Shown: positions 1 through 39,123 of the stretch, one piece after another
Numbering within the stretch: position 1 is the first letter of the stretch
Layout: each line of letters opens with the position of its first letter
Assembly: GCA_028714255.1 (NCBI GenBank)
Contig: JAQTMR010000018.1
Coordinates: 1 to 44,744, forward strand
Direction: 5' to 3'
Source: Phycisphaerae bacterium
Lineage (GTDB): Bacteria > Planctomycetota > Phycisphaerae > Sedimentisphaerales > Anaerobacaceae
DNA: 44,744 nt
Notes under the pieces: generated by a model
Database searches by the model: none
What the model was told of the DNA's origin: nothing
Seen by the model: the letters and a program-made list of their open reading frames with translations, nothing else
Program-made: the position numbers and the translations under genes

Positions 1-127
1 AAGAATTATCGGCTGCGAGTTCAGGGAAACAACCAGCGACAAAGAGCTTCTAAAGATGATTACCCTTACTGCCGATGCTGACAGATGCGTAATTGCATAC
101 AACAGATTCCTCGGCGAGGCCGGCGGA
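1..127. repeat. Terminal direct repeat, left copy (circular junction)
   Basis: Identical base for base to 44618-44744. A gene reads in frame across the junction (44064 to the end, then 1-3727). This is what a circular or circularly permuted molecule gives after assembly. The length of exactly 127 suggests an assembler k-mer overlap rather than a biological terminal repeat. Confidence 0.95.
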
Positions 128-3100
128 ACCGACAGTATCGCAATTAACTTCGAAGGCGGCTCTGACAAGACTATCATCGCCCAAAACACCTTCATAGGGG
201 ACTGGTCCGGTTATGTAATTGACGGTTCAACGGCCGCTTCGACCGAACTGGCCGTTTACGGAAACTATATACACAACTGCGATACGAGCGCCGGAAAAAC
301 TATGGCCTTTCACGCATCCGCTACCGGCGGGATTTTCTCCAATCGGTGCTACGGCAATGGGGCATCGTTTGCCATTGTCGGCGATGCCATGTTCGTATCG
401 CCCGACAATATAGTTATGGCCACCGAGAACGCCGAAGTCAGAAACTACGAGTCTATGTTCGGCGCTTTTACCGGCGATGGGGGTACGGATGCGGGCGATA
501 GTATTTACGCCGATATGGTCCTTGCGCAAACCGACCTCGATGCGATTATAGCCGACTTTGTCGATTATAGTCTCGATGAATTAGTCTCAAGCGACGACGC
601 CGCGGGAGCGACACCATATCCCGATTCAGTGGTTCAGGATTCCATTTTTGCGTTTTTGATGTCAAAGTCGGCTTCACCAGTAGCGACTTCCTACGATAAC
701 ACGAAACACTCGTTACAGGCGATAGGCGACGACACAGATACGCTTATTGTGGATACCACGGCCATTCAGGCATTACTGGCCGCTATGAACAATACCGGTT
801 ACGTGGGCACCTGCTCAAACAACGCAGTTACCACAACCGCTATCGTTTCTATTCTGGCCGGTTTCGGCGACGACTACTTTAATACCGGATGGTTCATGAT
901 TGTTATCAAAAATGCGTCCGGTGCAGGTACAGCGCCGGAAGGAGAGATTATAGACATCACGGACTATTCATCGGCGACCGGCACGTTTACTCTTAACGTG
1001 GCCGCCACAGAGGCACTGACGACCGGCGATTGTATTATGTTAAAGCGCACCGAGGAACTGGAACTTGATATGCCGACAGCATTGGGCGGTGCCGGAACGA
1101 TTCGGTACGTGGATTCCGGTACAAGCGGCGATGGTTCGGGCCTGACGTGGGAAAACGCCTACGCCACCCTTGCCCTTGCCGAAGCCGCATGCTCCGCCGG
1201 CGATGTTATCTATGTAGCCGACGGCCATAACGAAAATATTACTACCGGCGGCGATGTTATTAATGTAGCCAATATTACCGTTATTGGTATGGGTAAAGGC
1301 GATGCCAGACCGTTATTCGATTTTGACGCCGCCGATGACGAACTTACGCTCGATGCCGCAGGCATTACGCTTAAAAATCTTCGCTTCAGACCCGGCGCAA
1401 CTATTGTAACCGCCTGTATAAGAGTCGAAGATGCCGGTATCGGCTGCACTATCGAAGATTGCGCTTTTGTCGATGGCGAAGCCTCCACCACCGATGAATT
1501 TGTCGATGCTGTAAGCGTAGATACCCTGGCATCAAATTTGACCGTTAAAAACTGCACTTACTTCAGCGCCGATGCAACGGGACATACCAATACGTTTGTT
1601 AATCTTGACGAGGCCACGATTGCAAATGCAACAATCGAAGGATGTACGGTATTCGGGATGTTCGCCGAAGCACCTATCTGGGGCGCAGCTTCGATTCCGA
1701 CAAACGTAACTATCCGCAACAACACGATTTCAAATACGACTACGGGCCAGCTATGTATAGAGTTTCAGGGCGCAGCCACCGGCGTTTGCGTGGGGAACAG
1801 ATTATATTCCGATTCTTACGCTACGATGCTCGACCCCGGCTCTTTAAAGTGCATTGATAATTTGGGTGCCGATGCCATCGACCAGCAGGCAATCGCCGTC
1901 CCAATAAGCGCAGAAACCTCAGATGTTACTGCCGTTGCTGACGGGTCCGAACTTGAAAGACTCGAACTCCTGCAGGAAATGACTGATGATGCCCTTGCTG
2001 CGATGGGACTCGACCAGGCCGTCGATAACACTTACTACGTCGACAGCGTGGCAGCCAACGGCGGGACCGGCCTGACGTGGGAAACTTCCGAGAACACACT
2101 CGTTCTTGCCATAGGCGATGTAACCACCAATACCGGAGCAACTATTTTTCTTGCCGCAAACCACGCCGAAAATATCGGCGGCGCTACCGCCGTTAATAAG
2201 GCCGGTATGACGATAATTGGTTTGGGCAGCGGCGAATCCCGTCCGATATTAACGTTTGATACCCAAACCGACTCTCTGGTTCATACTGTTCCTAATGTGA
2301 AGTACAAGAACATTATTTTTGTAGTTTCGACACAGGATTGTACTGCCGGGATAACTTTGGACGCAAGTTCTGACGGTGCTGTTTTCGAGGACTGCGAATT
2401 CAGGAATACAACAACTTCAGAGTTTGTAAATACAGTTACTTTGGCTGCTGCAACAGATAATGTCCGATTTACCAGATGCAAGTTTATAAATAACACCGCC
2501 GCCGGCGGAAATGTGGCCGCTATTAGCAGTACGGCCGGTGTTACCAACAATCTGGTAATTGAGGATTGCTACTTCTACGGAGCGTTTACGACAGCGGCTA
2601 TTTTATCTGACCAGGTTGAAGTTAACCTGCAAATCAAAAACAACACGATATACAATACATCGACCGGCGATTACGCGATAAAACTTTCGGCTGCCGCGCT
2701 GGGCATCATGTCGGGCAATAAATGTTATGCCGATACCTGGGGAACCATAATCGATCCAGGTTCGCTGAAATGTTACGATAACTACGTAACTACCGCCATT
2801 GACGAAACCGGTTATCTCTATCCCGACAGACCCCAAAAAATCGATTCTGTCCACGGCACAGGCCGGGTCATTTATGTAGACTCCGGCGTGGCCGCCGCCG
2901 GCGGAGGCGGGACGTGGGCGACCGCATTGCAGACCATCGATGCGGCTATGGACCTGACCAGCGCCGACAGGGGCGATGTTATTTATGTCGCTCAGGGCCA
3001 TAAGGAAGTCGAACAGGCGGCCGCCGCCATATTTACCTGCGATGTCGCGGGCGTTTCGATTATCGGAGTCAGCAGCGGTTCATCTTTTGCGACCGTAGCT

Positions 3101-3727
3101 GCCGGCGATACCACCGATAACCAGATGCCGACATTTATTTTAGACCACGCCTCCGCGACCGTAAGCGTTACGGCTGCAAATGTTACGCTTAAAGGTCTGA
3201 AGTTCGAGTCCGATGCGGCTGATTGCGCTATTGGTATTACTGCCGCCGCAGGCGCTGATGGGCTGGTTGTCGATGGATGTTATTTCCGCGACGGAGCTGC
3301 TGCCGAAGAACTGGTAATAGGCGTAAGCATAGCTGCCGCCTGCACCGATGTTCAGGTCAAGAATTGCTACTTTTCGACGTATCCAGGCGGCGGATGTGCA
3401 AATGCCATACTGCTGGCCGGGGCATCTGACGACAGTATCTTCGAGAATAATGTGGCAAACGGAACATACTCCGGCGGTGCGTTTTTGGCCACCGCAGCGG
3501 CCTCCCGCAACCTCACTTTTAAAAATAACACCTTCTGTAATCAGGGAGCCATTGCCGTTGACCTGAATGCCGGAACAACCGGCGTTATGGCCAACAATTA
3601 TCTGGCCGGAACGACATCTATTGCCGCCGCCCTGACGGATGTGGATGCTATGTGGCTGTTTGAAAATTATGTATCAGGTGAAGATAACAAGAGCGGACTG
3701 CTTGACCCCGCTGCTGATGCAGATTGA
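1..3727 (+). CDS. Tailspike / adhesin with four beta-helix units (3' part of the gene starting at 44064)
   Basis: Continues the gene that starts at 44064; base 1 is the third base of a codon. The joined product is 1426 residues. After a signal peptide it has four related units beginning near residues 68, 552, 862 and 1140. Each opens with a YVDSG-like strand followed by a glycine-rich TW segment, then a GDxIYVAxGHxE motif and a long run of short beta strands with turns such as NNTI, CxFxD and NN. This is the pattern of right-handed parallel beta-helix (pectate-lyase-like) tailspikes that bind or cleave surface glycans. No catalytic residues could be assigned. It is the first gene of the exterior tail module and is followed by a terminator. 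The product is inferred from repeat pattern and position only. Confidence 0.75.
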   Translation, partial: RIIGCEFRETTSDKELLKMITLTADADRCVIAYNRFLGEAGGTDSIAINFEGGSDKTIIAQNTFIGDWSGYVIDGSTAASTELAVYGNYIHNCDTSAGKTMAFHASATGGIFSNRCYGNGASFAIVGDAMFVSPDNIVMATENAEVRNYESMFGAFTGDGGTDAGDSIYADMVLAQTDLDAIIADFVDYSLDELVSSDDAAGATPYPDSVVQDSIFAFLMSKSASPVATSYDNTKHSLQAIGDDTDTLIVDTTAIQALLAAMNNTGYVGTCSNNAVTTTAIVSILAGFGDDYFNTGWFMIVIKNASGAGTAPEGEIIDITDYSSATGTFTLNVAATEALTTGDCIMLKRTEELELDMPTALGGAGTIRYVDSGTSGDGSGLTWENAYATLALAEAACSAGDVIYVADGHNENITTGGDVINVANITVIGMGKGDARPLFDFDAADDELTLDAAGITLKNLRFRPGATIVTACIRVEDAGIGCTIEDCAFVDGEASTTDEFVDAVSVDTLASNLTVKNCTYFSADATGHTNTFVNLDEATIANATIEGCTVFGMFAEAPIWGAASIPTNVTIRNNTISNTTTGQLCIEFQGAATGVCVGNRLYSDSYATMLDPGSLKCIDNLGADAIDQQAIAVPISAETSDVTAVADGSELERLELLQEMTDDALAAMGLDQAVDNTYYVDSVAANGGTGLTWETSENTLVLAIGDVTTNTGATIFLAANHAENIGGATAVNKAGMTIIGLGSGESRPILTFDTQTDSLVHTVPNVKYKNIIFVVSTQDCTAGITLDASSDGAVFEDCEFRNTTTSEFVNTVTLAAATDNVRFTRCKFINNTAAGGNVAAISSTAGVTNNLVIEDCYFYGAFTTAAILSDQVEVNLQIKNNTIYNTSTGDYAIKLSAAALGIMSGNKCYADTWGTIIDPGSLKCYDNYVTTAIDETGYLYPDRPQKIDSVHGTGRVIYVDSGVAAAGGGGTWATALQTIDAAMDLTSADRGDVIYVAQGHKEVEQAAAAIFTCDVAGVSIIGVSSGSSFATVAAGDTTDNQMPTFILDHASATVSVTAANVTLKGLKFESDAADCAIGITAAAGADGLVVDGCYFRDGAAAEELVIGVSIAAACTDVQVKNCYFSTYPGGGCANAILLAGASDDSIFENNVANGTYSGGAFLATAAASRNLTFKNNTFCNQGAIAVDLNAGTTGVMANNYLAGTTSIAAALTDVDAMWLFENYVSGEDNKSGLLDPAADAD

Positions 3728-3741
3728 TAGTTTAAATTAAT

Positions 3742-3778: not shown

Positions 3779-5416
3779 ATGAAAAAGATAATTCTATTCT
3801 TAATTCTGTTTTTGTTCAGTATAAGTTTTGCGGAAAATTGTTTTAAAGCAATAATTTCCTCTCAATCGCAAACAGATTACGGATGTAATATTCCGGTTAC
3901 ATACACTATTGGCCTGCCGGAAGGGACAAAAACGCCGTGCAGGGCCTACAAACAATATAACCAGACCTGGCAGGAAATTACCGGGAAAACTTCCGACGAT
4001 TTTTTTAACAACATCGAATGTGTCCGGTTTGAATATGACAGCTCAATATCTTATATTTCACTGAACTTCCCGACAGATTCCAATATCTTATATTTCAAAA
4101 TTGTGGATTCAGCTGGAGTTTCCACGGTAGATTATCCGCCTCTTAATTTACAATCGCCGACAAATATTTCGGCTCAAGTGGTATATTACGATGATGCGAT
4201 AGTTGAGTATGTTGCCAATGGCAATATACACAAATATCGTTTTTATCCGTATAAATATCGAAACAGCACATATTACGTAAATCCGCAATATATCGAATAT
4301 CAGGCCCCATCGCCCGACACAAGCGGGAGAAAATATTATATTGATTTTGCGCCATTTTGGACATTCGACCCGAATTGCGACGGCGTAATAGCCTTGTCCT
4401 ATATGCATAACGGCACGGAGGTCATAAGAAACTGGGACAAGGCGCAGCGACTGCCCAATACCATTACAGAATTTTTAGATTACGAATCCGACTTCTGGAA
4501 TTTAACCGTTACAGGTTCTCCGGAAACGTGGACTGGTTACGCAGACCAGGACCATGTTAATTATTATTATAATCTTCCGAATTACTACGATGCCCGCAAG
4601 GCTGTCGTTTGTGCTACCGGCGATGACTGGTCAGGCTCTTCTTCCTCATCAAATCCAATGCAAAGCATAGTTGATGTATTTGCGCAGGATAAACTTTATT
4701 TAACCATTGGAATTATCACTGAACTTGACCCTAACTGGACTGAAATTAAAAACCAAATCGCCACCGGTTATGTTGAACCTGCCTCACACGGCAGGACAAC
4801 CAAAACCGCCTCTGAATACGAAGAAGGGGATGCCGCCGCCGAAATAGAAGGCAGTAAACAGGACATTTTCACAAATCTTAATAATGATTTACCGGATTTT
4901 TTAATACGAGGAAATAGCAAATATGTTTTGACATTTATGGAGCCGAGCGGCGTTTCAACAATGCAGGCAAGAGCGCAAATCGGTCAAAGCAAATATCTGA
5001 CTGATAGAAGCACGGTCAGCAATGTTTCAACCTTCCAGATATGGGACGATGCAAATGGCCTGCTTAATCGAATCGGCTATACAATCAGAATGGGCAGCGG
5101 CGATGGCGGGACCTCTGATATAAACACCTTAAATGCCAAGTTTAACAGCGTGTATAACGCAAACGGCATATATCATCTTATGTTTCACCCTACGAGTTTA
5201 GATGATGGCGACAATCTGGCCACTTATGTTACTTCTCATCTTACATACATATCCGGAAAAAAGGATGTTTGGTATGTTCCGTTCGGACAGTTGTATTTAT
5301 ATCGCTATATGACGGCAATTGCGACTTCTGAAGTTTTTGTCGAGCAGTACGTCGCACAGGATAACCGAAACAGATATGACTCCAGCGCGTTTTTGCTGGG
5401 CAGAAACAGATATTAA
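3779..5416 (+). CDS. Secreted tail protein with polysaccharide-deacetylase-like C-terminal half
   Basis: 545 residues from ATG 3779; an earlier in-frame ATG at 3740 lies inside the terminator. The N-terminus is a clear Sec signal (MKK, hydrophobic core, cleavage after SFA). The second half resembles the NodB/polysaccharide deacetylase fold: GDDW near residue 280 (compare the metal-binding DDG motif), SHG near 336 (compare the H-x3-H zinc motif, second His not evident), FHP near 469 and a VWYVPFGQ strand near 495, typical of the family's C-terminal end. Such enzymes remove acetyl groups from surface glycans. Between tailspike and tail tube A, a receptor-glycan-modifying tail protein is plausible. 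The fold match is by eye and the active site looks incomplete. Confidence 0.5.
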   Translation: MKKIILFLILFLFSISFAENCFKAIISSQSQTDYGCNIPVTYTIGLPEGTKTPCRAYKQYNQTWQEITGKTSDDFFNNIECVRFEYDSSISYISLNFPTDSNILYFKIVDSAGVSTVDYPPLNLQSPTNISAQVVYYDDAIVEYVANGNIHKYRFYPYKYRNSTYYVNPQYIEYQAPSPDTSGRKYYIDFAPFWTFDPNCDGVIALSYMHNGTEVIRNWDKAQRLPNTITEFLDYESDFWNLTVTGSPETWTGYADQDHVNYYYNLPNYYDARKAVVCATGDDWSGSSSSSNPMQSIVDVFAQDKLYLTIGIITELDPNWTEIKNQIATGYVEPASHGRTTKTASEYEEGDAAAEIEGSKQDIFTNLNNDLPDFLIRGNSKYVLTFMEPSGVSTMQARAQIGQSKYLTDRSTVSNVSTFQIWDDANGLLNRIGYTIRMGSGDGGTSDINTLNAKFNSVYNANGIYHLMFHPTSLDDGDNLATYVTSHLTYISGKKDVWYVPFGQLYLYRYMTAIATSEVFVEQYVAQDNRNRYDSSAFLLGRNRY

Positions 5417-5437
5417 CTTTTATTAAGGAAAAAAATC

Positions 5438-6094
5438 ATGAAAAAGACAATTTTAATTACAGTCTTATCTTTATGCAGTCAGGCTTTTGCTGTGCTGTCG
5501 ACTGTGCCGCATGATGCGGGCTTGGGGCAACATCTGACCACCGTCCAGCATAAAGCCGAGCTGGTTGTGACGGCAGAGGCGAATATGGCCGAACTCGACC
5601 CGAACGATGAAATGACATGGGACGACTGCAAAACTCTGGCCACTCATATACCGACTAAATGGAACGCCGTCAGCTTGAGTTTTTACGGGTATGGCGACGG
5701 CGGCGATACGCGGGGAGTTGCCGATTCGAACGACCCCGGCGACCCCTGCAACGCCACGTTTAAATTCAGCGTCTATTTCTGCGATTTTTACGGGGGACTG
5801 GAACCTGCTTTAGTCGACGCTAACGGCGTTATCGGGGACCAGCAGCTCAGCCACGACCCTGCTGGGGGAACCGAACTCAACGCGGGCGAGCCGAACTCAA
5901 GCTATTGCTGGGCCGATACCATTAACAGCGGGACCGCATCGTGGGGCAAAACAATTACCTACTCCAATTATCTCGGTACGAATATGAAGGCGGAACTGAA
6001 AATCGACCGGCAGGAGTCCTACGGGATTTACGTCAGAATTTACAATATCTCATCGGGCGTAGCGAAAATCTATTGCGTAATGAACGGGTTTTAG
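5438..6094 (+). CDS. Secreted hypothetical tail-module protein
   Basis: 218 residues with a good Shine-Dalgarno (AAGGA) before the ATG. It starts with a Sec signal (MKKT, hydrophobic core, cleavage after QAFA). The rest is rich in Gly, Asp, Tyr and Cys and looks all-beta, with FYGYGDGGDTRG and YFCDFYGG segments. No family recognised. It sits between the deacetylase-like protein and tail tube A and probably belongs to the receptor-binding or fibre apparatus. Function is inferred from position only. Confidence 0.6.
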   Translation: MKKTILITVLSLCSQAFAVLSTVPHDAGLGQHLTTVQHKAELVVTAEANMAELDPNDEMTWDDCKTLATHIPTKWNAVSLSFYGYGDGGDTRGVADSNDPGDPCNATFKFSVYFCDFYGGLEPALVDANGVIGDQQLSHDPAGGTELNAGEPNSSYCWADTINSGTASWGKTITYSNYLGTNMKAELKIDRQESYGIYVRIYNISSGVAKIYCVMNGF

Positions 6095-6106
6095 GAGATT
6101 ATTATT

Positions 6107-6826
6107 ATGCCTACCGAAACGGAAATAGCCAATCTGGCCGGCGGGAAAATCGGCGGATTCGGCGACCAGGCAACGGCGGCCGGTTTTATCGAGACTATCA
6201 ACGGCACCGACAAAATATCCAAATGGTGCAAAACACTCCTGCCGGAATGCCGGAAACAGGCAATCATAGATTTAACAATAGCAGGCTGCCCGCCGAGAGA
6301 GGCGATAAAATACGCCGATTTAGGGGCAGAAGTCGCAGAAGAAAGTCTGCCGGAAATTGGCGGATGGGAATACGCCTTTAACCTGCCTTCCGATTGTATC
6401 GCCGTGTCAAAACTGCTGGACGAAGATTTTACCAGCACAACCGAAAAACGGACCGAATACCAGTTTGAAACCATCGTAAATAAAACCAATAACGGCAGAT
6501 TACTGCTTACAAATGACCTCACAAACGCAGATGGGACAGGCGCATTCATCGAGTACGTAATCGACCAGACCAACCCTGCGGCATTCAGCAAGACGCTGAA
6601 AAACTGCATAGTTCTCCTGCTGGCGGCGGAACTGTGCCCACTGGTCGGCAAGGACCCGAAACTAAGAAATCAGCTGCTTATCGAATACGAACAACTAACA
6701 AAGCCCAGCGCCAAAAAATATAACCAGAGCCAGTTTAATAATTACGCCAAATCGAAGCCCGGGGATTATTTCGGCGGACGCGGCCAAACCACCATTCAAT
6801 ATAATAATGCGGAAACAGACCAATGA
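6107..6826 (+). CDS. Tail tubular protein A (T7 gp11-like adaptor)
   Basis: 239 residues, strong ribosome site TAGGAGAT. Shows the usual gp11-family features: an N-terminal helical part with a WCKTLLPECRKQAI segment, a central WEYAFNLPSDCIAV strand motif, YQFE followed by a LLLTND strand, and a C-terminal helix with LLAAELCPLVGKD. In T7-like virions this ring joins the portal to the tail nozzle. It overlaps the fibre gene by ATGA, so the two are translationally coupled. Unlike its neighbours it has no signal peptide. Confidence 0.88.
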   Translation: MPTETEIANLAGGKIGGFGDQATAAGFIETINGTDKISKWCKTLLPECRKQAIIDLTIAGCPPREAIKYADLGAEVAEESLPEIGGWEYAFNLPSDCIAVSKLLDEDFTSTTEKRTEYQFETIVNKTNNGRLLLTNDLTNADGTGAFIEYVIDQTNPAAFSKTLKNCIVLLLAAELCPLVGKDPKLRNQLLIEYEQLTKPSAKKYNQSQFNNYAKSKPGDYFGGRGQTTIQYNNAETDQ

Positions 6827-9585
6827 AAACAAAAACGCAATTATCGATTATTCTGCTGTTGGTAATGTATTCTACTGCAGCAGCAACAGTACCGGCCGGT
6901 GAGACAATCAGGGAGTTTTCTACCTGTAACGGAACAGCAACGACCTTTAATTTTACAATTCCATGCGGTTCGGCGGACGATATCAAAGTATATAAACGCC
7001 TGATTTCAACCGGAGTACAAACACTTTTGATACAGGATACAGATTATACTATTTCCCTGACCACAGACGGCGACCATTATTCCGGCGGGACAGTAACTAT
7101 TTCGCCGGCACTTGCCTCGACTTATAAGGTGGTAATAACAAGAGACGGTGCACAGACTCAGGAAACATCGGCAGAGTCTGTCAACCCCACTTCAGTGGAA
7201 GCGATGGCCGATAAGATTACAAGGATTACGCAGGATTTAAAGGACAGAAAAAACAGGTCTATTCGCTTACAGGAAAGCGATGCCGATACGGACCTTGAAT
7301 TGCCCGTATTAAGAGCGGATAAATACGTTGCTTTTAATGACGATAACGACCTTATACTGACGGCAGGGCCGAGAGGAGACAGCAATATACCCGTATCTTC
7401 TTTTATAGAAACTTTATTTGACGATTCCGGCCCTGCAGATGCGCTTACAACTCTTTCGGGCAGACCTGTAATAAACGTCAAAACATACGGCGCGGCAGGA
7501 AACGATTCGACAGATGATTATTTGACTATAACGAACGCAGTAGTAGCTGCTTCAGAAGCCAATTATCCTTTGTATTTCCCGCCGGGGATTTATCAGATTT
7601 CCAAAGGTCTTGAAATAACTACCGATAATATGATTATCATAGCCGACAATGCCACACTTAAACCTCACAGCACTTACACAGGCACGATAAAGGCCTGGGA
7701 TTACGACGCTAATGTTACCGAGATGTCTTTAATGCGTGTTTTGGACTGTAATAATTTTCAAATCTACGGTATGACTTTCGACCAGGGTGGATGGGAGGCT
7801 ACGGGAGATGAAAACGGCGGCGGACTTACCATATTTCACTTCGTAGTGCCGGAGGCGTGGACTGAACATTTTATAATTGAAAATTGCACTTTTAATAACT
7901 GCGACAAGTGCATTATCGTAGCTAACGATGTCAGGGACGTAGTGGTAAACAACTGCAAGATGCTCGACTTTACCGATACCGCTATAAGTTTCGACCAGTA
8001 TTATCCGGGCGGGGTCGTAAAGCATTACCCGATAGGACTGCGATTTACCAACAACTTTGTCTCTACGACCTCAAAAAACAACTACGCTATTTATCTGTCG
8101 GGTTTTTCGGACGCTTACATACATAACAACAAAATTAAATCCGGTATGGGCGGTATCATAGTCAAGACCAATGACTTCGGTACACAGGCCGAAAACTGTG
8201 TAATATCCAACAACACCATCAATATAGCCAATGCCACGCTTACCAACATAGACAGTGGTATTCACATAAGAGGCACATCGTTTGTCGCCGATTCCGATGA
8301 TATAGTAAAAGACGATTTTTACGCGCGCGGGATTTCAATTACCAATAATTTCATAAACTCGAGTACCGACCACTCAACCGATACGACCAATTCAAATATA
8401 GCCGGCATTCAGTTATATTTCGCCGAAGATGTTACTATTCAGGGCAACAGAATCTCTAATTTTCCGGTTTGTATAAACATGGCCGATGTAAAGACCATTA
8501 CGGATGAGGGGGTTTACGCCAGCAGGAGAACCTGCCCGATGATTATAGGCAACACGTTTGCCAACGCCTCGCGCTCTCCGATAGTATTCAATTCGGTAAA
8601 AGGCGCAACCATTATCGGAAACGTATTTAAGAACTGGGGCAGAGGCGCAAATGTCTCCGCCGAATACAAAGGCATCGATATAGGCGGTCAGGGTCAGAGT
8701 TCTTACGGACAGAAGAACGTAAAAATCATAGGAAACCACTTTGTAGATTATGCCGGTTCCCATAACGCTTTTATCGCCAACGGCAGGTCTGCGCAAAACT
8801 GCTATATCTTCCATAACACCTGGGAAGACCCTAACGGAATTGTAACCGACGCCGACAGCAAGGTCGATACCCAAAGTATCGATGTTACGGTCTATACGGG
8901 GTTTAACCAAAAGACAACGTCGGGCAGAATTTTTAAGGGCGCAGCCAACTCAGCAGGTTCGTATTCTGTTTATGACAGGATTGAATTTTTGAGCCCTACT
9001 GCCGTAGCAGGCACTAAATGGAACGGCCAGATTTGCACTACCGCAGGCGCAACCGGCAGGTCAACAGCGGTAACCGCAACGGGTTCGGCGGATGCTAATT
9101 ACTTTACCGCCTCCGCTTCTATGTCGGGAAATAGTGAACTCCGAACAGGAGACAGGATAATAGCAGGTGCGACCAACTATACTATCACTGAGATTGATTA
9201 TAGGCAGAATTACGTCTATGTAACCCCCGTTCTGGCCGGCGATTTGAGCGCGAATGCAATTACATTTCAAACTGCGGTATTTTCCTATATAAATCCCGCA
9301 CAGGAAGCAAGCATATCCACGCTGGCTAATGATGCCACACCTTCGGTTACAGGTGCTAATTTATGGCTCACCGGCGGCACAACCACTATAACCGATTTTG
9401 ATGATGGGGCTACCGGACAGATAATTACAGTAATCGCAGCACATAGCCTGACGATAACCGACGGCACGAATATCTTTTTAAACGGCAGTGCGAATTTTAC
9501 CATGACCGCTACCGATACCCTTACGCTGATTCAGCAGTCGGACGGCAAATGGTATGAAACAGGTCGAAGCGACAGCGGGGCTTGA
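6823..9585 (+). CDS. Tail fibre: T7 gp17-like N-terminus plus pectate-lyase-3 beta helix
   Basis: 920 residues. A Sec signal (about residues 1-22, cleavage in STAAA) comes before the conserved tail-fibre N-terminal domain (about 25-170), which includes the two-strand ITRDGAQTQETS region and the EAMADKITRITQDLKDR helix that attaches fibres to the tail. From about residue 216 (VINVKTYGAAGNDSTDD) a pectate-lyase-3 type beta helix runs to about 700. A C-terminal beta domain ends in LTLIQQSDGKWYETGRS, common in podovirus fibres. The expected role is host surface binding, possibly depolymerase activity. The signal peptide is the odd part: the canonical N-terminal domain follows it intact. Confidence 0.85.
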   Translation: MKTKTQLSIILLLVMYSTAAATVPAGETIREFSTCNGTATTFNFTIPCGSADDIKVYKRLISTGVQTLLIQDTDYTISLTTDGDHYSGGTVTISPALASTYKVVITRDGAQTQETSAESVNPTSVEAMADKITRITQDLKDRKNRSIRLQESDADTDLELPVLRADKYVAFNDDNDLILTAGPRGDSNIPVSSFIETLFDDSGPADALTTLSGRPVINVKTYGAAGNDSTDDYLTITNAVVAASEANYPLYFPPGIYQISKGLEITTDNMIIIADNATLKPHSTYTGTIKAWDYDANVTEMSLMRVLDCNNFQIYGMTFDQGGWEATGDENGGGLTIFHFVVPEAWTEHFIIENCTFNNCDKCIIVANDVRDVVVNNCKMLDFTDTAISFDQYYPGGVVKHYPIGLRFTNNFVSTTSKNNYAIYLSGFSDAYIHNNKIKSGMGGIIVKTNDFGTQAENCVISNNTINIANATLTNIDSGIHIRGTSFVADSDDIVKDDFYARGISITNNFINSSTDHSTDTTNSNIAGIQLYFAEDVTIQGNRISNFPVCINMADVKTITDEGVYASRRTCPMIIGNTFANASRSPIVFNSVKGATIIGNVFKNWGRGANVSAEYKGIDIGGQGQSSYGQKNVKIIGNHFVDYAGSHNAFIANGRSAQNCYIFHNTWEDPNGIVTDADSKVDTQSIDVTVYTGFNQKTTSGRIFKGAANSAGSYSVYDRIEFLSPTAVAGTKWNGQICTTAGATGRSTAVTATGSADANYFTASASMSGNSELRTGDRIIAGATNYTITEIDYRQNYVYVTPVLAGDLSANAITFQTAVFSYINPAQEASISTLANDATPSVTGANLWLTGGTTTITDFDDGATGQIITVIAAHSLTITDGTNIFLNGSANFTMTATDTLTLIQQSDGKWYETGRSDSGA

Positions 9586-9587
9586 TA

Positions 9588-11891
9588 ATGAAGATAAAAA
9601 ATCTTATTTTAATTTTTTTGTTTGCAACAATATTGTTCGGATATTCCCCGGGGATAACGAGTTTTAACACAGGCCAGATTTCCCCTTATATGGAGGCCAG
9701 AAGCGATTTTGTAAAATATCCTTCTTTCTGCAGAACGCTTGAGAATATGGTTGTCCTGGCGCAAGGACCTGTAACGAGACGGCCGGGAACAAAATACATC
9801 GCTACAGCCAAATCCGAAAACTGCGTGCTTATACCTTTCGAGTATTCCACTGACGATACTTATATCCTTGAATTCGGCGATGAATATATAAGATTTTACC
9901 GAAACGGCGGGCAGATTCTCGACCCCTGCGACCCTAATATCGCCTATGAAATAACCACTGTTTTCGACATAAACGACGTTGCAAAATTACGGTACGCCCA
10001 GTCCAATAATGTGATGTACCTTGTTGACGGCAGCGATGAGCCGCAAAAACTTACCCGCACATCTCACACGAGCTGGACGATAGAGGATGCAAATATCGTT
10101 ACAGGGCCTTTTCAGATTGCCAATACCGAAGATATAAATATAGTGCCGTCAGATGTAAATATCGGAGAGTCCATAACATTAATGGCTGATTCAAATATAT
10201 TCCTTGCCGGACATGTCGGGGCACTGTGGCAAATAAGCCAGGAAAGAACATCGTCCACGCTTACGGGGACCCTCGACGCAAACGGCTCATCCGTAACTTC
10301 GGGCTATTTTGAGGGCAGTTATAGTTTCGTTACTACCGGAACATGGGAGGGCACTATTACCCTGCAGAGAAGCACAAACGGCGGGATAACGTGGGATGCG
10401 GCCCTGACTCCCTTATCCTCGACCAATTACGATAACCCATCCGAAACGGAAGCTGACGGTGCGGTTTACAGGATTACGATGTCCGCCTATGTGAGCGGCG
10501 AATGCGAATATACGCTGACTATAGGGGACACTCTCAATAACGGTATAGTAAAAATAACCGCCGTAACGGACGGCAACGAGGCTGTCGCCACTGTAATAAC
10601 CGAACTTGTGAATACGGACGCCACTAATGTATGGAGAGAAGGGTATTGGTCGGATTACAGGGGCTGGCCCAAAACAGTTTGCTTTCATCAGCAAAGACTT
10701 ATTTTCGGCGGCTCGGAGTCCTTCCCCCAAACTATGTGGTTCGGCAAACAAGACCCCGATGATTACACTAATTTTTCGGAAGGTTCCGCCGATACATCGT
10801 CTTTTACAATGGCCTTGCAGGGACAGAACCCTCTGCAATGGATGCTGTCGGGAGATTATATTTTTATAGGTACGAGCGGTTCTGTCGGCAAATACGGCAA
10901 GCAGGGTGAAGCCATTACCCCTACGAGCCCCTCTTATAATGAACAGACTAAAAACGGCTCTGCCGATATGCAGGCGGTTTTCGCAAACGACTCTATACTG
11001 TACGTCGAAAGAGGAAACAGGAAAATCAGGGAACTTGCGTATTCTCTGCAGTCCGATAAATTCGTATCGCCCGACCTTACTATACTTTCCGAAAATATAA
11101 CACAAAGCGACATAAAAGACATAGCGTTTCAGGCGAGGCCGAACCCTATACTCTGGTGCGTATTAAATGACGGGAATATGGCTACGCTCACTTTTCAGAG
11201 GGACCAGGAAATAATCTCCTGGGCTATGCAGACAACGGACGGCAATTTTGTGTCGGTTTCAGTTATTCCCAGCGGCGGGGAAGATGAGGTTTGGGTGGAA
11301 ACGTCAAGGACAATAAGCGGCTCGGAAGTTTTCTATATAGAACAATTCCAGCCATTCGACTGGGGAACCGACAACAACGACTGCTTCTTTGTCGATTGCG
11401 GCCTGGATTATGACAGTACGGCTACGGATAGTTTCGGCGGACTGTCTCATTTAGAGGGCAAAAGCGTTTCGGTCTACGCGGACGGCATCGCCCTTTCTAA
11501 TGTTACTGTTTCAGGCGGTACGACAACGATAGCAAACTCGGCGGGACGGGTGATAATCGGACTGCCCTTTACATCTAAACTTGAAACAATACCGATTACA
11601 ATCGACCCGCAGGACAAGGCGATGAATAAAAAAATTACCAGAGTCAATATTGACTTTTTGAATACAGGCTACTGTAAATACGGGTTCGGCAGATACAGCG
11701 AACTTATACCGGTAAACTTCTGGAACAATTTTACAACCGCCAAACAACCGCTTTATACCAGTGAAGATGCACCATACGATTGCGCCTGGCCGTTTGGCCC
11801 GAAGAAAAAAGCCACAATTTACCTGGAAACCGATAAACCCCTGCCATTGTGCGTCAGGTCAATAATACCCGAAATTGAGGTAACTAAATAA
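9588..11891 (+). CDS. Tail tubular protein B (T7 gp12-like nozzle)
   Basis: 767 residues from ATG 9588; a TTG two codons earlier is less likely. The family N-terminus is clear (TSFNTGQISPYMEAR, then CRTLENM and GPVTRRPGT). It continues with repeated beta segments, the WPKTVCFHQQRLIFGG motif and SVGKYGKQGEAITP, all usual for gp12-like nozzle proteins. Before the canonical start sits a hydrophobic signal-like segment (about residues 1-21, MKIKN then LILIFLFATILF) with a less clear cleavage site. The tail nozzle carries the fibres and conducts DNA during ejection. It follows the fibre gene with almost no gap. Confidence 0.9.
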   Translation: MKIKNLILIFLFATILFGYSPGITSFNTGQISPYMEARSDFVKYPSFCRTLENMVVLAQGPVTRRPGTKYIATAKSENCVLIPFEYSTDDTYILEFGDEYIRFYRNGGQILDPCDPNIAYEITTVFDINDVAKLRYAQSNNVMYLVDGSDEPQKLTRTSHTSWTIEDANIVTGPFQIANTEDINIVPSDVNIGESITLMADSNIFLAGHVGALWQISQERTSSTLTGTLDANGSSVTSGYFEGSYSFVTTGTWEGTITLQRSTNGGITWDAALTPLSSTNYDNPSETEADGAVYRITMSAYVSGECEYTLTIGDTLNNGIVKITAVTDGNEAVATVITELVNTDATNVWREGYWSDYRGWPKTVCFHQQRLIFGGSESFPQTMWFGKQDPDDYTNFSEGSADTSSFTMALQGQNPLQWMLSGDYIFIGTSGSVGKYGKQGEAITPTSPSYNEQTKNGSADMQAVFANDSILYVERGNRKIRELAYSLQSDKFVSPDLTILSENITQSDIKDIAFQARPNPILWCVLNDGNMATLTFQRDQEIISWAMQTTDGNFVSVSVIPSGGEDEVWVETSRTISGSEVFYIEQFQPFDWGTDNNDCFFVDCGLDYDSTATDSFGGLSHLEGKSVSVYADGIALSNVTVSGGTTTIANSAGRVIIGLPFTSKLETIPITIDPQDKAMNKKITRVNIDFLNTGYCKYGFGRYSELIPVNFWNNFTTAKQPLYTSEDAPYDCAWPFGPKKKATIYLETDKPLPLCVRSIIPEIEVTK

Positions 11892-11892
11892 T

Positions 11893-12498
11893 ATGTCGAC
11901 CGAATCACTTTTAATGGGCGCATTGATTGGTCAGGGCGTCGGCACCGGATTGTCCATAATGGGCCAGATTCAGGAAGGCAAAGAGGCGGAGGAACAGGGC
12001 AAAAGAATGAAAGCCCTTGCGCAGGCCCGAGCAGCGATAGACATAGAGAACGCAGAGGCCGCAAGAGAACGTTCTGTCGAGGAAGCCAAAATAAAATCAG
12101 AACGGGGCACTAAATTACTTGCCCGCCAGAAAGCCGCCTTCGCTGCGGGCAATGTTTTAACCAATGTAGGCTCTCCTCTCGTTTTAGAGGCTGAAACCAA
12201 AAGGGATATAGCAAAAGACATCGGATTTATCCTGGAAACCGGCAGAGGCGAATCCGACGCTTATAGAAGTCAGGCCGAATACGAACTGGCCTATGGCGAT
12301 ATAATGGAAAAACAGGGCAAGAAGGCAAGAAAACAATCAAAATGGGACGCACTTGCTACCGGACTGGGAGGATTCGGCTCTATGGCTTATATGGGTTATC
12401 AGGGTGGGTATTTCGGCGGGAGCAAAAGTGGAACGGGATCACAACGACCGGCTACCGGCCCGATGAGTAAGGGTTATAGATTAAGATTAGAAGGCTAA
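11893..12498 (+). CDS. Internal virion protein (T7 gp14-like)
   Basis: 201 residues. An N-terminal glycine-rich hydrophobic segment (GALIGQGVGTGLSIMG) is followed by a long Ala/Glu/Lys helix with ERSVEEAKIKSERG and FAAGNVLTNVGSP, then a C-terminal GLGGFGSMAYMGYQGG segment. This is typical of gp14-like ejection proteins, which enter the host outer membrane at infection. It starts one base after the tail tube B stop and precedes the two larger internal proteins, the usual podovirus order. No signal peptide. Confidence 0.8.
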   Translation: MSTESLLMGALIGQGVGTGLSIMGQIQEGKEAEEQGKRMKALAQARAAIDIENAEAARERSVEEAKIKSERGTKLLARQKAAFAAGNVLTNVGSPLVLEAETKRDIAKDIGFILETGRGESDAYRSQAEYELAYGDIMEKQGKKARKQSKWDALATGLGGFGSMAYMGYQGGYFGGSKSGTGSQRPATGPMSKGYRLRLEG

Positions 12499-12501
12499 CT
12501 A

Positions 12502-14196
12502 ATGGGCGAGATGGAACTCTATCAGCGAAATCAATTACCGGCCGCCGGCGGCGGAGGAAAACCGCCTTATCGGCTGGCCGGTCAGCCGACAGACAGAAGC
12601 GGCCAGATTAGATTCGGCCAAACCCTTGCCGGTTTTTCAGGCAACATATTTGAGAAACTAATCGAAACGAGAGCGAACAACGAACACCACGAATTTTTAG
12701 GCAAAGTCAGTACGGCACAGGCGGAATTTGAGGGCTTTGTCAGGGCCAACCCCGGCGCACCGCTGGAGGACATCCAAAAAGCCAAGCAGAAAATGCTTAC
12801 GGATATTGACACTGCCGGCCAAAGTTCACAAACCAATATAGCAAAAGAAGCGAATAAAAACTTTTTGCTTCTTAACAGGGAAAAAATCGAAAAGCAGGCG
12901 GACGGCGAAGTCGGCGCAATAGTAATGAGGCACGAGGAGGATAAATTTAATATTCAGCGTCAAATATATCTCAAGACCGGCAATAAGGCCGCACTTGCCA
13001 ATTTATATAAACGCCATACGGAGAGCGGCTTTCTCGATAAGGAAACGGCGGAAATTGCATACAAAGCGGACACTATATACATCAATACGGAGTTAGAAAA
13101 GGCACAGAAAAAACAGGATGAAAATACCGCCCTGTCGCTGGCATCATCAATCGGCGGCAAAGAAGGCTTAAAATGGCTTCTGGACGAGAAAAATACACCG
13201 CAACTCGATACAGACCAAAAAAAATCAGTCATAAGCTCTTATAATTTTTTTGAGAAACAGAAACAAAAGAGCCAGACCTTAAATATTGAAAAAATGCAGG
13301 ATGATATTGCTGCAAGGCTTAACGAACCCGATGCGGTAAAACTACTTGCAGACATTGACAGTTTGCCGGACGATCCGGCCAGGGGAGTAAACAGCAAAAA
13401 CTGGTATAAAGAGGTCGTTCTTAACCGCGATAAATACCAGACCGACCTCGACGTTAAAATGGATTTACAGTTTAAAATTGATATGAATGAGCCGATTACC
13501 AAAAACGATATCAGGGAAAAATTAGGAAGGGGACTATCGGTTGCGGATGAGCAATGGCTCGAAAAAAGACTCACAGACAGCCAAGGCGATAAAAGGTACA
13601 GCCAGACAGTCAAATTCGCGCTGGAAAATCTGAAAAAACTGAAAACAACCGGAGAGTTTATTTCCGGCCAACTCGGCGTAACTGTAAAACCCGAAGACCA
13701 GACAATAACAGAAAGTCTGCAAAACCAGAAAATATTTTCAGCTATTTACGATGAATTTATACAATGGGTAGATGAACACCCGGACGCAAAAACGGGCGAG
13801 ATAACGGCCAAATACCAATCGCTTGTAGAACCGACACAAAATCAGGCTGCTTTGGGATGGTGGACGAACCTGTGGAGTTATCAAATTTTAGGACACAGAC
13901 TGATTTCTATATTAGGCGATACAGAGGAACAATTGCAGGTAAAGCGAAATGCAAAATTCTGGAATCAACTCCTGCAAAAAAATGATGATGAAGTTTTGGC
14001 CGAAATAGCGAAACTGCCGACATCCGTTCAGGCACAATGGAAGATTGATAAAAAAGCGGGTTCAACACCCAGGGAGTTTCTTAAAAAACAAAGAGATTAT
14101 CTGTTTTCCGGCGTTAAAACACCATATAAAATAGGCGACAAAAAGACCATAAACGGCACGACATATACCTATAACGGCAAGGAATGGGTGTACTAA
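12502..14196 (+). CDS. Internal virion protein (T7 gp15-like)
   Basis: 564 residues, ribosome site AAGG seven bases before the ATG. Mostly charged, helical sequence with many Lys, Glu and Gln, including predicted coiled-coil stretches (about 100-140 and 220-260). N-terminal QLPAAGGGGKPPYRL and RSGQIRFGQTLAGF segments resemble gp15-like core proteins. It lies between gp14-like and gp16-like genes, the conserved order for the ejectosome that spans the periplasm. Assignment rests mainly on order and composition. Confidence 0.7.
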   Translation: MGEMELYQRNQLPAAGGGGKPPYRLAGQPTDRSGQIRFGQTLAGFSGNIFEKLIETRANNEHHEFLGKVSTAQAEFEGFVRANPGAPLEDIQKAKQKMLTDIDTAGQSSQTNIAKEANKNFLLLNREKIEKQADGEVGAIVMRHEEDKFNIQRQIYLKTGNKAALANLYKRHTESGFLDKETAEIAYKADTIYINTELEKAQKKQDENTALSLASSIGGKEGLKWLLDEKNTPQLDTDQKKSVISSYNFFEKQKQKSQTLNIEKMQDDIAARLNEPDAVKLLADIDSLPDDPARGVNSKNWYKEVVLNRDKYQTDLDVKMDLQFKIDMNEPITKNDIREKLGRGLSVADEQWLEKRLTDSQGDKRYSQTVKFALENLKKLKTTGEFISGQLGVTVKPEDQTITESLQNQKIFSAIYDEFIQWVDEHPDAKTGEITAKYQSLVEPTQNQAALGWWTNLWSYQILGHRLISILGDTEEQLQVKRNAKFWNQLLQKNDDEVLAEIAKLPTSVQAQWKIDKKAGSTPREFLKKQRDYLFSGVKTPYKIGDKKTINGTTYTYNGKEWVY

Positions 14197-17100
14197 TGCC
14201 GACAATCACCACAGAACAAATCGAACAATTAGAGCGGACGGTAACGGACCCGCAAGAACCCCCTATAATGCCGCAGGAAAAACGAACCCTCAGCACAGAA
14301 GCGATGGAACAGCTTGAAGAACAGGAATCCATCAGAACCAATATGGCGGTGCTGACTGAGGCGGAATTGCAGCAGGGAGCTATGGCGGTGCCGGACGAGC
14401 TGGGAAACCTGCAACTCGTACCAAAAACCGACAACATAAAATACGGTCCTACAATCCGGGCGGCCAATATCACATACCTTGCAAACGCATTCGATATGGA
14501 CGACAAAGCGGCAGAGGGAGTTTATGATAGTCTTGTAACAAACATTTTCGGAGATAAAGAACCAGTTCATTTGAATATGTCGTTTGTAAAACAGTGGCAG
14601 CAGGACAAGTTTTTACAAATGAACGGCATCGACCCGAAACTGTGGCGGCTGGCAATAAATTTTATCGAAACGGCAGGCAAAGGGCAGGACTGGCAGACTA
14701 AAATTAACACTATTCCGGAAGATAGGATAGATGAATTTTTTAGTTATGTTTATAAAAACGCAGTACCCAAAGAATACGGATTTTGGGCCAAAGCGGGTAA
14801 AAGGGTGCAGAGAGGCACCACAAAAACGATAAGGGCATTTAAGAATCAGCTCAACTATTATCCCAATCGGACTCTATGGAATTACGAACACGGAACGAGC
14901 GGACTGCCAGCCTCAGAAGTTTTTACCGAAGAGGAACTTAAAAATATGCCGGATATCGGAAAAACAGAAACAACCTACAATCCAGATGAGGAAATCGAAA
15001 AAGAACGCAGACGAGCGGTATATCTGTCAAAGGCATATCAGTTATTGCATTCAAAAGAAAATTTAAAGGGCGGCAATAAATTATCGAGAGGGTTTTTCGG
15101 CGCTCTGGAAATGGCACCGGCAACGGTGGGAAGTTTAGCGGCCAATATCATACCAGGCGGGGGAGTGGCATTCTGGTATATACAAAGCTCGACTGAATTA
15201 TTCGAAAATATGGTATCAAACGGCATTGACCCGGAAAAAGCGGGCAAAATATCAGCCATCGCAGCAATACCCTATGCATATACCGAAATGCTCGAAAGAC
15301 AAACCTTTCTGCCAAATATTCTCAAACAAGGGGGCAAGCAAATAGTTAAAAAAACATTCGGCAAATTTATGCGAGATAAAGGAATCGACTACCTGACAAA
15401 TATGGGGCAGGAAACCATACAGGCCGGAATTGATATAACAAGTATGAAACTGGGGGATTATCTGGACAAAGAAAGTCCCGATATAGACTACAAACGGTTA
15501 ATCGACAATGAAATCGAAGGACTCAAAGAGGCGGCACTTGCCCTGCCGTGGATGATGGGACCCGGCGGCGCTGTTGACCTTGCAACAAGCGTTGATTTTG
15601 GCTTAAAAACACAGACAACCCCTAATATTAAGCTGAAACAAACGGTGCCAAACGCAACGCCTATAACAGACGCAGAGAGGCTATCGATGCTCGGTGAAGT
15701 CCAAACTATCCTCGAAGCGATGGGAGAGCATTCAGACAATCCGTTTGGCGATGAACTGCGGCAAAGGCTCGATATCCTCAAAAAGGGTGGGTCAAAAGAA
15801 GAACTGGACAACCTGCGGAAACAATATGACCAGGTATTCGGGAATGAAGGACCACCAGTACCCGGGGAAATCAGTCCGAAAGACAAAGCAAGAATGGAAA
15901 TAAGAGACTTGCAGGCAAAACAGGGCGAGGATGTCACGGCAATGGATAAAGAAGTAGAGGAAATTCAGCGACAGGCGATGGAGACGGGCAGGATACCCGA
16001 TGAGGCAATAGGCAAGGAAAGACCATTTGCTTTCGATAAAAACTCCACAGCCGAACAGGGCAGATTCACTTTAAAACCCATCCCCGAAATATCAGGGTAC
16101 TTTGATAAGGAAAGTCTGGAATCACGCAGCCAGACAGAGAATATGACCCTGCCGGACGGTATTACGGCAATTGTCGGACTGCATGAGGGCAGCGAAGAGG
16201 TACAATCGCTTCAATTCGACAGGACAAAATGGACGGATGAAGCTGCCGGCCAGTGGTGGGAAGATAACAGGATAAATTTTAAATTTTTTGTGCCGTCAGG
16301 ATATAAACCAAAAACGATTGAAAGAAAAATAACAGAGGCACAACCCAGGCAGATAAGGACAATCGAGGATTTATCGCAAAGTTACGAAGGACTGCCGTAT
16401 TCGGAACTTATGGGCGAGATTCGCAACCTCAATAACAAACTCAAAAAACCGCAAAGCCCGGAAATGAAGGCGGAACTTCAAAACCGCATCGATGCGGCCA
16501 AACAAATAGCAGAAAAACAGCACCCGGCATATAAAGAATTACTGAAAACCAACAGGGAAATTGCGGAACACGATATTTACAGGGATATCGAGCAGCAAAC
16601 GTCCAAAGCAGGGATAAGACTTGACCCGACAAACCCGATTATCATAGACCCGAAAGACTGGGGCGAGGTACAAAGCGCAATCGATGGCAACCCGTACCTC
16701 GAAAGATGTTTTGTTAAGGGACCGAAACCGGACGAAAGACCTGTCGGATTTAAAGGCTATTTTCAGATAGATAGCTGGGCAACGGAAAATTTCATACGTC
16801 AAAACGAAACTCAGGAAGATATAGAAAGTTACGGAGAGGCAAGAATACCCGGCAGGGAAAACACGGCGGATATCGACCTGTTTATCGAGGCGATAAATAT
16901 AGGCGAGCAACAGCGGAAAGGCGAAAAGGGGGTAGTAAACGAGACGACACTGCAACAGGCAATCGATACCGGTGAGCCGACGCTGCAGTGGCTTGCCGTC
17001 AAACGGGATATGCTGAGAAAAGGCTTTACACTTGACGAGGTACAGGAAGCGGAGATAGAATTCTATAAGGAGCTCAAAAATGAATACGAGAGTACAGAAG

Positions 17101-24375: not shown

Positions 24376-24385
24376 ATGGTGGAAA

Positions 24386-37341: not shown

Positions 37342-39123
37342 ATGTTTTGGGAAGATAAAACGCTATACGACAGGATAATCGACCGGCTGACGCAGCAGGC
37401 GCAGAAATACATCAAGTGGCGGACCGCTCAGGATAAGATTATCGAGATATTCCGCTCGGATATGGGGATTGAGTCCAGTCTTGACGGTGATTTTTTCGGT
37501 GCGGATATATACGAAAGCACACCCGCCTATGCGCTGGAAATAATGTCAACGGCCTTCAGGGGCAGCACAGTCAGCGAAGCACTCGACTGGATAAGATATG
37601 GTATGGGCGCTTTTGAATTACGAGGCATAGATAAATTAGACCAGTGGTGCCAGGACATCAGGGACCACATGACGGCGGTTTACAGAAGAAGCAACTTTTA
37701 TGATGTTCTGCCTCAATTTACCAAAGACGCCTTTTCGATAGGTTCTCCCGTGATGTTCGGGGGAGAGAATATCGTCACCAGGCGCATAATGTGGATGCCT
37801 ACCTATTATAAACACACATTTTTATTTTATGATAAATATAACGAATCCGAAGGCGTTATAGTCAACGATACCGAATGGACAGCAAAACAAGTATTCGATA
37901 CATTCATAAACAAAGAGGGGCAGGCAGGCAAGGATGCCAGAGAAAAGAAACTCAGCGTAAGTCTCAATAATTCGCTCGAACAGGGACAATTTAACGACAA
38001 AGCTACGATTATCAGGGCGGTTTTTAAGGCAAACGACCCGATATGGAACAATAAGAATTTCAAAAAACCGGCCGGAAGATATAAATGGATTTCAGTATTT
38101 TTTGAACTCGGAACCGAAGAAAAGAATAAAAATACACCCCTTAACGAAGATATGGGATTCTTCACCCAGCCGTATGTTTACTGGAACTACGATAAAAAAT
38201 CGCAGGATTCTTCCGCCCGAACACCGGCTTTTTATGCCGTTTTCGACGCTATGAGCGGACAGGATGTATATAAAGACTTCCTTGAAAATATGAAAAATCA
38301 AAACCGACCGGCGGTAATGGCACTGAACGAAATGAAAGGCCGGCTCGATATGGGACCGGAAGGGCTGATATGGGTCGATAAAGAGGAATATATGTCGCCG
38401 CCAAAAACGCTGGATTTAATAGGCCAGGTCAATTTTACCAAAGAACTGGCGGATTTACTGGGTGAAACCTGCAAACGCCATTTTCACGTTAACGAATTTC
38501 AGGCGATGAATAATCTGGCACGAACCAACAAACAGCCCGTCAGCGCCCTGCAAATATTGAAAATGGACGCCGAAAACAGTATTTTGCTAAGCCCGGCAAT
38601 CGAATCGCAGCGAAGCGTTTTGAGGATGATTGACGAAAGAATGATGGGCATTGAAATTGAGGCGGGCAACGGGCCTTTCGCGCCCGAGGTGAGGGAAAAT
38701 ATCACCGATATAATTTTAGAGAATATCAAGGACCGGAGAATAGCCACGGTCGCCGTTATACCCGAATTTATAAGCCAGCTCGGCAGGGCACAAAAAATAG
38801 CACAGGCACTTGAGCCTATAACAATGGGAATAGATATAGCGGCCGATATGGCCGCAAAATTAGACCTCGATTTGGTAATGGCGGTTAAGGGATATAAAGC
38901 ACTCGACAAGGCATATACAGCGATGGGGTTCCCAATGGATTGTCTGGCAACCGAAGAGGAATATATGGCGGCCAAAGAATTTGTTAATAAGCAAAGGGCG
39001 GCGGATAAACAGGCGATGCAGGCGGTTGAAATGATGAAGGCAAGCAAGAACATTCAGGGACCGGTTGACCCGAACAGCGTTTTGGCGGGCGCGGGGAAAG
39101 CTATGGCAGGGGCGGTGATATGA
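37342..39123 (+). CDS. Portal protein (T7 gp8-like head-tail connector)
   Basis: 593 residues with AAAGGATAATT ahead of ATG. N-terminal helix (RIIDRLTQQAQKYIKWRTAQDKII), LEIMSTAFRGSTVSEALDWIRYGM, a WMPTYYKHTFLFYDKYN strand, YVYWNYDKKS, a clip/stem region (DLIGQVNFTKELADLLGETCKRHFHVNEF) and an Ala/Met-rich C-terminus. Matches the head-tail connector family in size and order. Forms the dodecameric ring for packaging and tail attachment. Confidence 0.88.
   Translation: MFWEDKTLYDRIIDRLTQQAQKYIKWRTAQDKIIEIFRSDMGIESSLDGDFFGADIYESTPAYALEIMSTAFRGSTVSEALDWIRYGMGAFELRGIDKLDQWCQDIRDHMTAVYRRSNFYDVLPQFTKDAFSIGSPVMFGGENIVTRRIMWMPTYYKHTFLFYDKYNESEGVIVNDTEWTAKQVFDTFINKEGQAGKDAREKKLSVSLNNSLEQGQFNDKATIIRAVFKANDPIWNNKNFKKPAGRYKWISVFFELGTEEKNKNTPLNEDMGFFTQPYVYWNYDKKSQDSSARTPAFYAVFDAMSGQDVYKDFLENMKNQNRPAVMALNEMKGRLDMGPEGLIWVDKEEYMSPPKTLDLIGQVNFTKELADLLGETCKRHFHVNEFQAMNNLARTNKQPVSALQILKMDAENSILLSPAIESQRSVLRMIDERMMGIEIEAGNGPFAPEVRENITDIILENIKDRRIATVAVIPEFISQLGRAQKIAQALEPITMGIDIAADMAAKLDLDLVMAVKGYKALDKAYTAMGFPMDCLATEEEYMAAKEFVNKQRAADKQAMQAVEMMKASKNIQGPVDPNSVLAGAGKAMAGAVI

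Follow-up and report, generated by a model that had tools for sequence, protein, structure and literature searches.

Sec-type signal peptides on the distal tail proteins of a short-tailed phage lineage suggest tails made outside the cytoplasm

Genome and gene content of the phage

The stretch of DNA analysed here in full, referred to below as the window, is contig JAQTMR010000018.1 (44,744 bp) of the Phycisphaerae bacterium assembly GCA_028714255.1, and it is the circular genome of a podovirus in which the exterior tail proteins start with Sec-type signal peptides. The two ends of the window share 127 bp, indicating a complete circular assembly in which the tailspike gene spans the join. The podoviral gene set was present (head-tail connector, capsid, tube A and internal protein; PF12236, phrog_212, phrog_394 and phrog_418). 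Tail tube B, hereafter the nozzle, was of the gp12 type over its full length (phrog_376, E-value 9.6e-181, residues 23-766), a nozzle profile matched the Tail Nozzle of PDB entry 8ck1 with an E-value of 1.3e-109, and an AlphaFold model built from only 8 sequences gave a predicted local distance difference test (pLDDT) value of 55.5.

Signal peptides were evaluated with a home-made log-odds score covering the n-, h- and c-regions, which was calibrated on ten known E. coli signal peptides (13.6-20.9), with 506 open reading frames (ORFs) of 12 comparison podoviruses as controls. The genes concerned are as follows, each leader being given with the residues that follow the predicted cut.

44064..44744, continuing across the circle join to 3727, plus strand: tailspike, right-handed beta helix; signal 44064-44123, score 20.4, MKKIMVFLILFVCLAGTAGA before LTYDA
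56..3727, plus strand: rest of the tailspike gene (ORF and end overlap); Pfam Beta_helix 2.9e-20 on the 56-3724 part
3779..5416, plus strand: polysaccharide-deacetylase-like protein, orphan; signal 3779-3832, score 18.5, MKKIILFLILFLFSISFA before ENC
5438..6094, plus strand: uncharacterised tail-region protein; signal 5438-5491, score 14.1, MKKTILITVLSLCSQAFA before VLS
6107..6826, plus strand: tail tube A, gp11-type adaptor; phrog_394 1.1e-16; score -4.5, no signal
6823..9585, plus strand: tail fibre; phrog_2234, phrog_1640; signal 6823-6885, score 16.9, MKTKTQLSIILLLVMYSTAAA before TVPAG
9588..11891, plus strand: tail tube B or nozzle, gp12-type; phrog_376; signal about 9588-9641, score 16.1, MKIKNLILIFLFATILFG before YSP
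11893..12498, plus strand: internal virion protein, gp14-like; phrog_418 8.1e-17; score 3.5, no signal
12502..14196, plus strand: internal virion protein by position; score -3.0, no signal
14184..20069, plus strand: giant internal protein, gp16-like by position; score -9.5, no signal
37342..39123, plus strand: portal or head-tail connector; PF12236 2e-25; score -16.7, no signal
39159..39743 (internal start of ORF 39120), plus strand: phage lipoprotein; score 17.3, MKNVIVVILAFLLIIGSG before C, lipobox IIGSG before the invariant Cys
40910..41797, plus strand: scaffold-like protein by position; score -23, no signal
42362..43384, plus strand: major capsid protein; phrog_212 2.3e-13; score -14.2, no signal

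The metagenome-assembled genome (MAG) that holds the window (as contig C18) measures 2.41 Mb and is 98.9% complete, and its RpoB was 80-87% identical to that of Planctomycetota MAGs, many of them named Phycisphaerae or Sedimentisphaerales. This binning supports a Planctomycetota host near Phycisphaerae/Sedimentisphaerales. Nozzle relatives in a second genome of the same genus (phage G001:C12, 55% identical in the nozzle, circular and also with a 127-bp overlap) and in a genome of the same family (G066, one more homologue) lend support to the assignment. One scan of genome contigs with the window nozzle found no relative, and a comparison of the window with CRISPR (clustered regularly interspaced short palindromic repeats) spacers in 89 genomes of the family gave weak short matches only, two of which were host secretory leaders.

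Signal peptides on the exterior tail proteins

All five outer-tail proteins named in a first-pass annotation of the window (tailspike, deacetylase-like protein, 5438 protein, fibre and nozzle) started with Sec-type leaders as strong as those of E. coli secretory proteins, with scores of 14.1-20.4 against 13.6-20.9, and the reported signals are real by this measure. The coordinates given there were right, 3779 being the signal-bearing ATG within an ORF that opens at 3740, and its list of signal-bearing proteins lacked only a sixth, the lipoprotein at 39159. The leaders had the Type I (Sec/signal peptidase I) layout, with a basic n-region, a hydrophobic h-region and small residues at -3 and -1. 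The cut before YSP in the window nozzle was set by comparison with relatives, the best-scoring cut lying 4 residues further on. A minus-strand match at 41872 scored as a seventh signal and was taken as chance, lying as it does inside a gene of the other strand.

The head and core proteins of the window (tube A, portal, capsid, scaffold, decoration and internal proteins) scored between -23 and 3.5 and none was positive, as the annotation had held for all but the decoration protein, which it did not name. The same split was repeated in a survey of the clade, in which no homologue with a readable N-terminus carried a signal on tube A (0/9), capsid (0/10), portal (0/4) or scaffold (0/5). The N-terminal domain of the tailspike behind the leader was found again in relatives, each copy with its own leader. 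For the deacetylase-like protein, whose match to PF01522 was below the cut-off (E-value 0.007), no relative was found in viral contigs or phages. The portal of G001:C12 is likewise adjoined by a lipoprotein gene (L014, 8057-8383; MNKVLILTVLLLVAG before C, lipobox LLVAG), and the portal-adjacent lipoprotein is a candidate superinfection-exclusion or head-tethering protein. The two lipoproteins look different from each other.

Among the control ORFs 20 of 506 (4%) reached a score of 14, an upper bound as the best of several starts was allowed, and those that could be identified were Rz spanins, endolysins and lipoproteins, together with tail-region genes of one comparison phage, Caudoviricetes sp. 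vir555. The other 11 control podoviruses had no identified tail gene among their ORFs scoring at least 14.

An explanation in which hydrophobic N-termini remain on the virion and insert into the outer membrane of the recipient cell during entry is very improbable. Membrane insertion by hydrophobic segments on distal tail proteins is conceivable, and the signal pattern is no more than compatible with this; a full n/h/c layout with a peptidase site was found instead, one leader resembles host secretory leaders even in its DNA, and spike, fibre and accessory proteins all have leaders despite their different places on the virion.

Conservation of the leaders in nozzle and fibre relatives

A set of 82 nozzle homologues was collected by scans of viral contigs, genomes and annotated phages and placed on a maximum-likelihood tree (quick method). 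A nozzle was counted as signal-bearing when its leader scored at least 13 or was seen by inspection (L002 with a TTG start, L017, L020 and L021), which gave 15 signal-bearing and 67 signal-less nozzles. All 15 fell inside one clade of 19 rows (Shimodaira-Hasegawa-like approximate likelihood ratio test, SH-aLRT, 98), the 4 signal-less rows there including the G001 phage, and the label changed 4 times on the tree against 14.1 times with shuffled labels. The nested position of G001 suggests that the signal may have been lost in that phage. The distance from the start to the conserved F..G..SP motif was 22-35 residues in signal-bearing nozzles and 8-16 in signal-less ones, and the nozzle starts at the ordinary place in the named phages near the clade (HTVC010P, Lederberg EXVC029P, ct8d5349 and epsilon15).

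Fibre relatives in viral contigs were found by querying with the mature N-terminal domain alone, and 8 of the 10 relatives surveyed carried a signal. The signal-bearing fibres were those of the window, L001, L019, L022, L023, L024, L148 and L226; the homologues in G001, vir555 and G029 carried none, nor did the more distant L149-L155. In the window the leader precedes the region matched by tail phrogs, leaving TVPAG as the mature N-terminus. In 8/8 signal-bearing fibres Thr-Val directly followed the predicted cut, position -1 being Ala or Gly and position -3 being Ala, Val or Ile, whereas signal-less fibre homologues begin M-TV. The leader thus stands in the place of the initiator Met, and cleavage would yield nearly the same mature protein. 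This A/G-TV junction is as expected if the leader is cleaved and offers what we consider the best sequence evidence for it. Together the F..G..SP spacing and the M-TV alignment support the earlier statement that a leader was added before the canonical N-terminus of nozzle and fibre.

The leaders could instead be uncleaved anchors that hold tail parts in the inner membrane facing the periplasm, with tails built there and heads perhaps docking from the cytoplasmic side. The window nozzle does have the weakest cleavage site (LFG followed by Y), and the portal-adjacent lipoprotein genes in the window and in G001 could tether heads. Anchors, however, need no junction such as that of the fibres, where A or G stood at -1 in 8/8 at a position fixed by the alignment and the residue after the cut was residue 2 of the signal-less homologues, and most nozzle leaders finished in a small residue (S/A/T-F-G followed by Y/V, or similar). 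Anchoring is in our judgement unlikely, and the membrane-anchored tail intermediates that the first-pass annotation had offered as one possible meaning are disfavoured by the exact fibre junction. Its two other readings, tail assembly on or across the membrane and display on the cell surface, fit the sequence equally.

Mean identity among the leaders was 37% for the nozzle and 46% for the fibre, and all nonetheless scored 13 or more, while under simulated neutral drift of the window leaders to 40% identity that score survived in only 6% of the nozzle runs and 9% of the fibre runs. The leader therefore seems, from these comparisons, to be under maintaining selection. Shine-Dalgarno sequences precede most leader-bearing genes, supporting their starts. 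A start-codon check on homologues, which had been proposed with the annotation, gave an upstream leader conserved over 15 nozzles and 8 fibres, and in the L024 and L159 nozzles and the L148 fibre there was no other start codon between the leader and the conserved N-terminal motif. That the signals are an artefact of wrong start codons or of chance hydrophobic N-termini is hardly credible on these grounds, and neither the other 67 nozzles in the tree nor the tail genes of the 11 control phages have them; the point in its favour is the window nozzle itself, where no clear Shine-Dalgarno sequence precedes the start and a TTG lies upstream.

The nozzle of L020 is encoded as two adjoining pieces (9084-9425 and 9425-11497), each with its own signal (MIKRIVIIILIVGLAALA, score 18.2; MKKIILLIILFLSAVSFA, score 18.5), the second leader being placed where the piece begins mid-protein. 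Since both fragments are signal-bearing, each chain seems to need a signal to reach the same compartment, and a signal on every fragment seems hard to explain otherwise than by a common target compartment. A third L020 gene (6490-9087) repeats the nozzle N-terminal region, with GLUG-type repeats and a leader-like start. Large extra domains are inserted soon after the N-terminal domain in the signal-bearing nozzles of L002 (about 7189-10959), L021 (7390-11145) and L017 (3225-7094); they are LamG-like by eye, with GLUG in L020, which makes the nozzle look like a mount for carbohydrate-binding modules.

It is also conceivable that the exported proteins act outside the cell, as spikes, fibres and enzymes that are released or bound to the surface and block superinfection, strip polysaccharide or serve as decoys, and that virions take up only a signal-less fraction produced by internal initiation or by a failure of targeting. 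Polysaccharide activity or binding is typical of deacetylase-like, beta-helix and LamG proteins, the G001 spike keeps its signal where nozzle and fibre have none, and internal ATG, GTG or TTG codons occur in the window fibre and in several nozzles. These internal starts are not conserved, however, being absent from the L024 and L159 nozzles and the L148 fibre; a dual start giving one exported and one cytoplasmic form likewise found no support in conserved internal starts. It is not evident what a nozzle would do outside the virion, and both L020 nozzle halves are signal-bearing, which makes an exclusively outside role rather doubtful.

Proposed export of the distal tail

The sequence directly shows signals that are confined to exterior tail genes and conserved, and a mature fibre N-terminus that matches that of signal-less homologues. 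On this basis it is fairly probable that these phages export the distal tail, with nozzle, fibre and spikes passing through Sec, being cut by signal peptidase I and being joined late to the heads. Nozzle, fibre, spikes and accessory tail proteins would be made as preproteins, cross the host Sec translocon, be cut by signal peptidase I and fold in the periplasm, so that the N-termini of mature nozzle and fibre would differ little from those of their cytoplasmic homologues. Synthesis of heads, portal, tube A and internal proteins would be cytoplasmic, as is usual for podoviruses, with tube A closing the heads. The two halves would meet only once the inner membrane has been opened late in infection, and the final additions, first the nozzle and then fibres and spikes, would take place in the periplasm or the lysate. 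For virions of two compartments in this full sense, with filled heads in the cytoplasm and Sec-exported, periplasm-matured nozzles, fibres and spikes joined at an inner-membrane opening or on head release across it, we see the chances as evenly balanced. What we infer is that the proteins are translocated and cleaved, and where and when assembly takes place.

Two further observations count for the export of the distal tail. In T7 the tail is assembled in the order portal, gp11, then gp12 and fibres, gp11 and gp12 being consecutive steps, and the boundary between signal-less and signal-bearing proteins, which falls between tube A (gp11) and nozzle (gp12), matches this podoviral order. The DNA of the ribosome-binding site and leader of the 5438 gene resembles host-family secretory leaders, with 86-89% identity over 36 bp to the corresponding segments of genes for secreted proteins in genomes from that family.

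A number of findings weigh against it. The signal calls rest on a home-made score and not on SignalP. The same-genus phage G001:C12 has no signal on nozzle and fibre, keeping those on its spike (13424), on 17798 and on 30078, and L226 (1095-4591) has a signal-less nozzle while its fibre and other tail-region proteins have a signal, a case in which the trait is only partly present; nozzle export is thus not obligatory. The gp14-like internal protein of L157 (10573-11247) carries a strong signal, the only core protein in the clade with a clear one. For heads to reach periplasmic nozzles the membrane would need a large opening, and among the window ORFs scanned, Pfam and PHROGs revealed neither a holin nor an endolysin. 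The division by virion topology drawn in the first-pass annotation therefore stood for the exterior genes of the window and clade and broke down in L157, L226 and G001:C12, leaving a rule that exterior parts carry signals which is strong, not strict. The host cell plan was considered as the cause of the signals and rejected, as G001:C12, from the same host genus, is without nozzle and fibre signals and the host accordingly does not impose them.

Relation to known phages

The window shares families and gene order with T7- and epsilon15-type tails (gp11 adaptor, gp12 nozzle, gp17 fibre). Unlike the window, T7, epsilon15, HTVC010P, YeP5, Vibrio 1.185, SR18, TL-2011b, Carin1, ctVRi840, BUCT708 and ctQRb9 had no signal on any identified tail gene. 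These 11 control phages and the 67 other nozzles bear out the earlier claim that ordinary podoviruses lack tail signals, a usual feature of the group and not a formal definition, from which the window departs. T7 and P22-like model phages assemble their tails in the cytoplasm, and we know of no tailed phage that makes its tail elsewhere. In filamentous phages the pIII and pVIII preproteins have cleavable signals and, until assembly, reside in or across the inner membrane. There the coat proteins stay membrane-embedded and virions are extruded, whereas the window encodes soluble tail parts of a double-stranded DNA tailed phage; its capsid protein, instead of being a membrane-embedded major coat protein, matches the phrog_212 major head protein and has no signal.

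A comparable pattern was seen in vir555 (BK063671, L108), with gene order and families similar to those of the window and signals on tail-region genes 25129, 38538, 40848 and 41577. It differs in that its nozzle (annotated at 26231) and fibre (37057, MTVSNT...) have no signal, the fibre starting where mature signal-bearing fibres start. The recorded host of vir555 is Methanomicrobiales, an assignment that may deserve a check.

Signal peptides have been described on the T4 RI lysis protein, where the signal is cleavable (PMC8385771), and on the endolysin of the relative PfDIW6 (PMC8951688); such Sec-exported lysis proteins share the use of Sec and signal peptidase with the window, but they are not virion structural proteins. 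The absence of signals has even been taken as support for a phage origin of tail proteins (PMC6199706). In the literature searched, with preprints and most subscription papers outside the search, there was no account of signal peptides on a tailed-phage nozzle or fibre, and phage use of Sec was described only for lysis proteins. Podovirus tails with export signals are unprecedented in that literature and the assembly route is potentially new. The data suggest that tails are made outside the cytoplasm in a short-tailed phage lineage with at least one member from Planctomycetota.

If true, tail export would add a new assembly route, one that would allow oxidative folding of tail parts and keep heads non-infectious until lysis, and that could block superinfection from within. 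Pipelines that read a signal peptide as the mark of a host-secreted protein and not of a phage tail would miscall such genes. Natural comparisons exist within the clade: nozzles and fibres with and without signals in phages of one host genus, and a nozzle divided into two pieces that each carry a signal.

Other genes of the window

A small membrane protein at 20126-20398 might be a holin. A tRNA-Met gene lies at 21947-22021, two tyrosine integrases at 24257-25360 and 32682-33464, and three DNA methyltransferases between 27099 and 29819.

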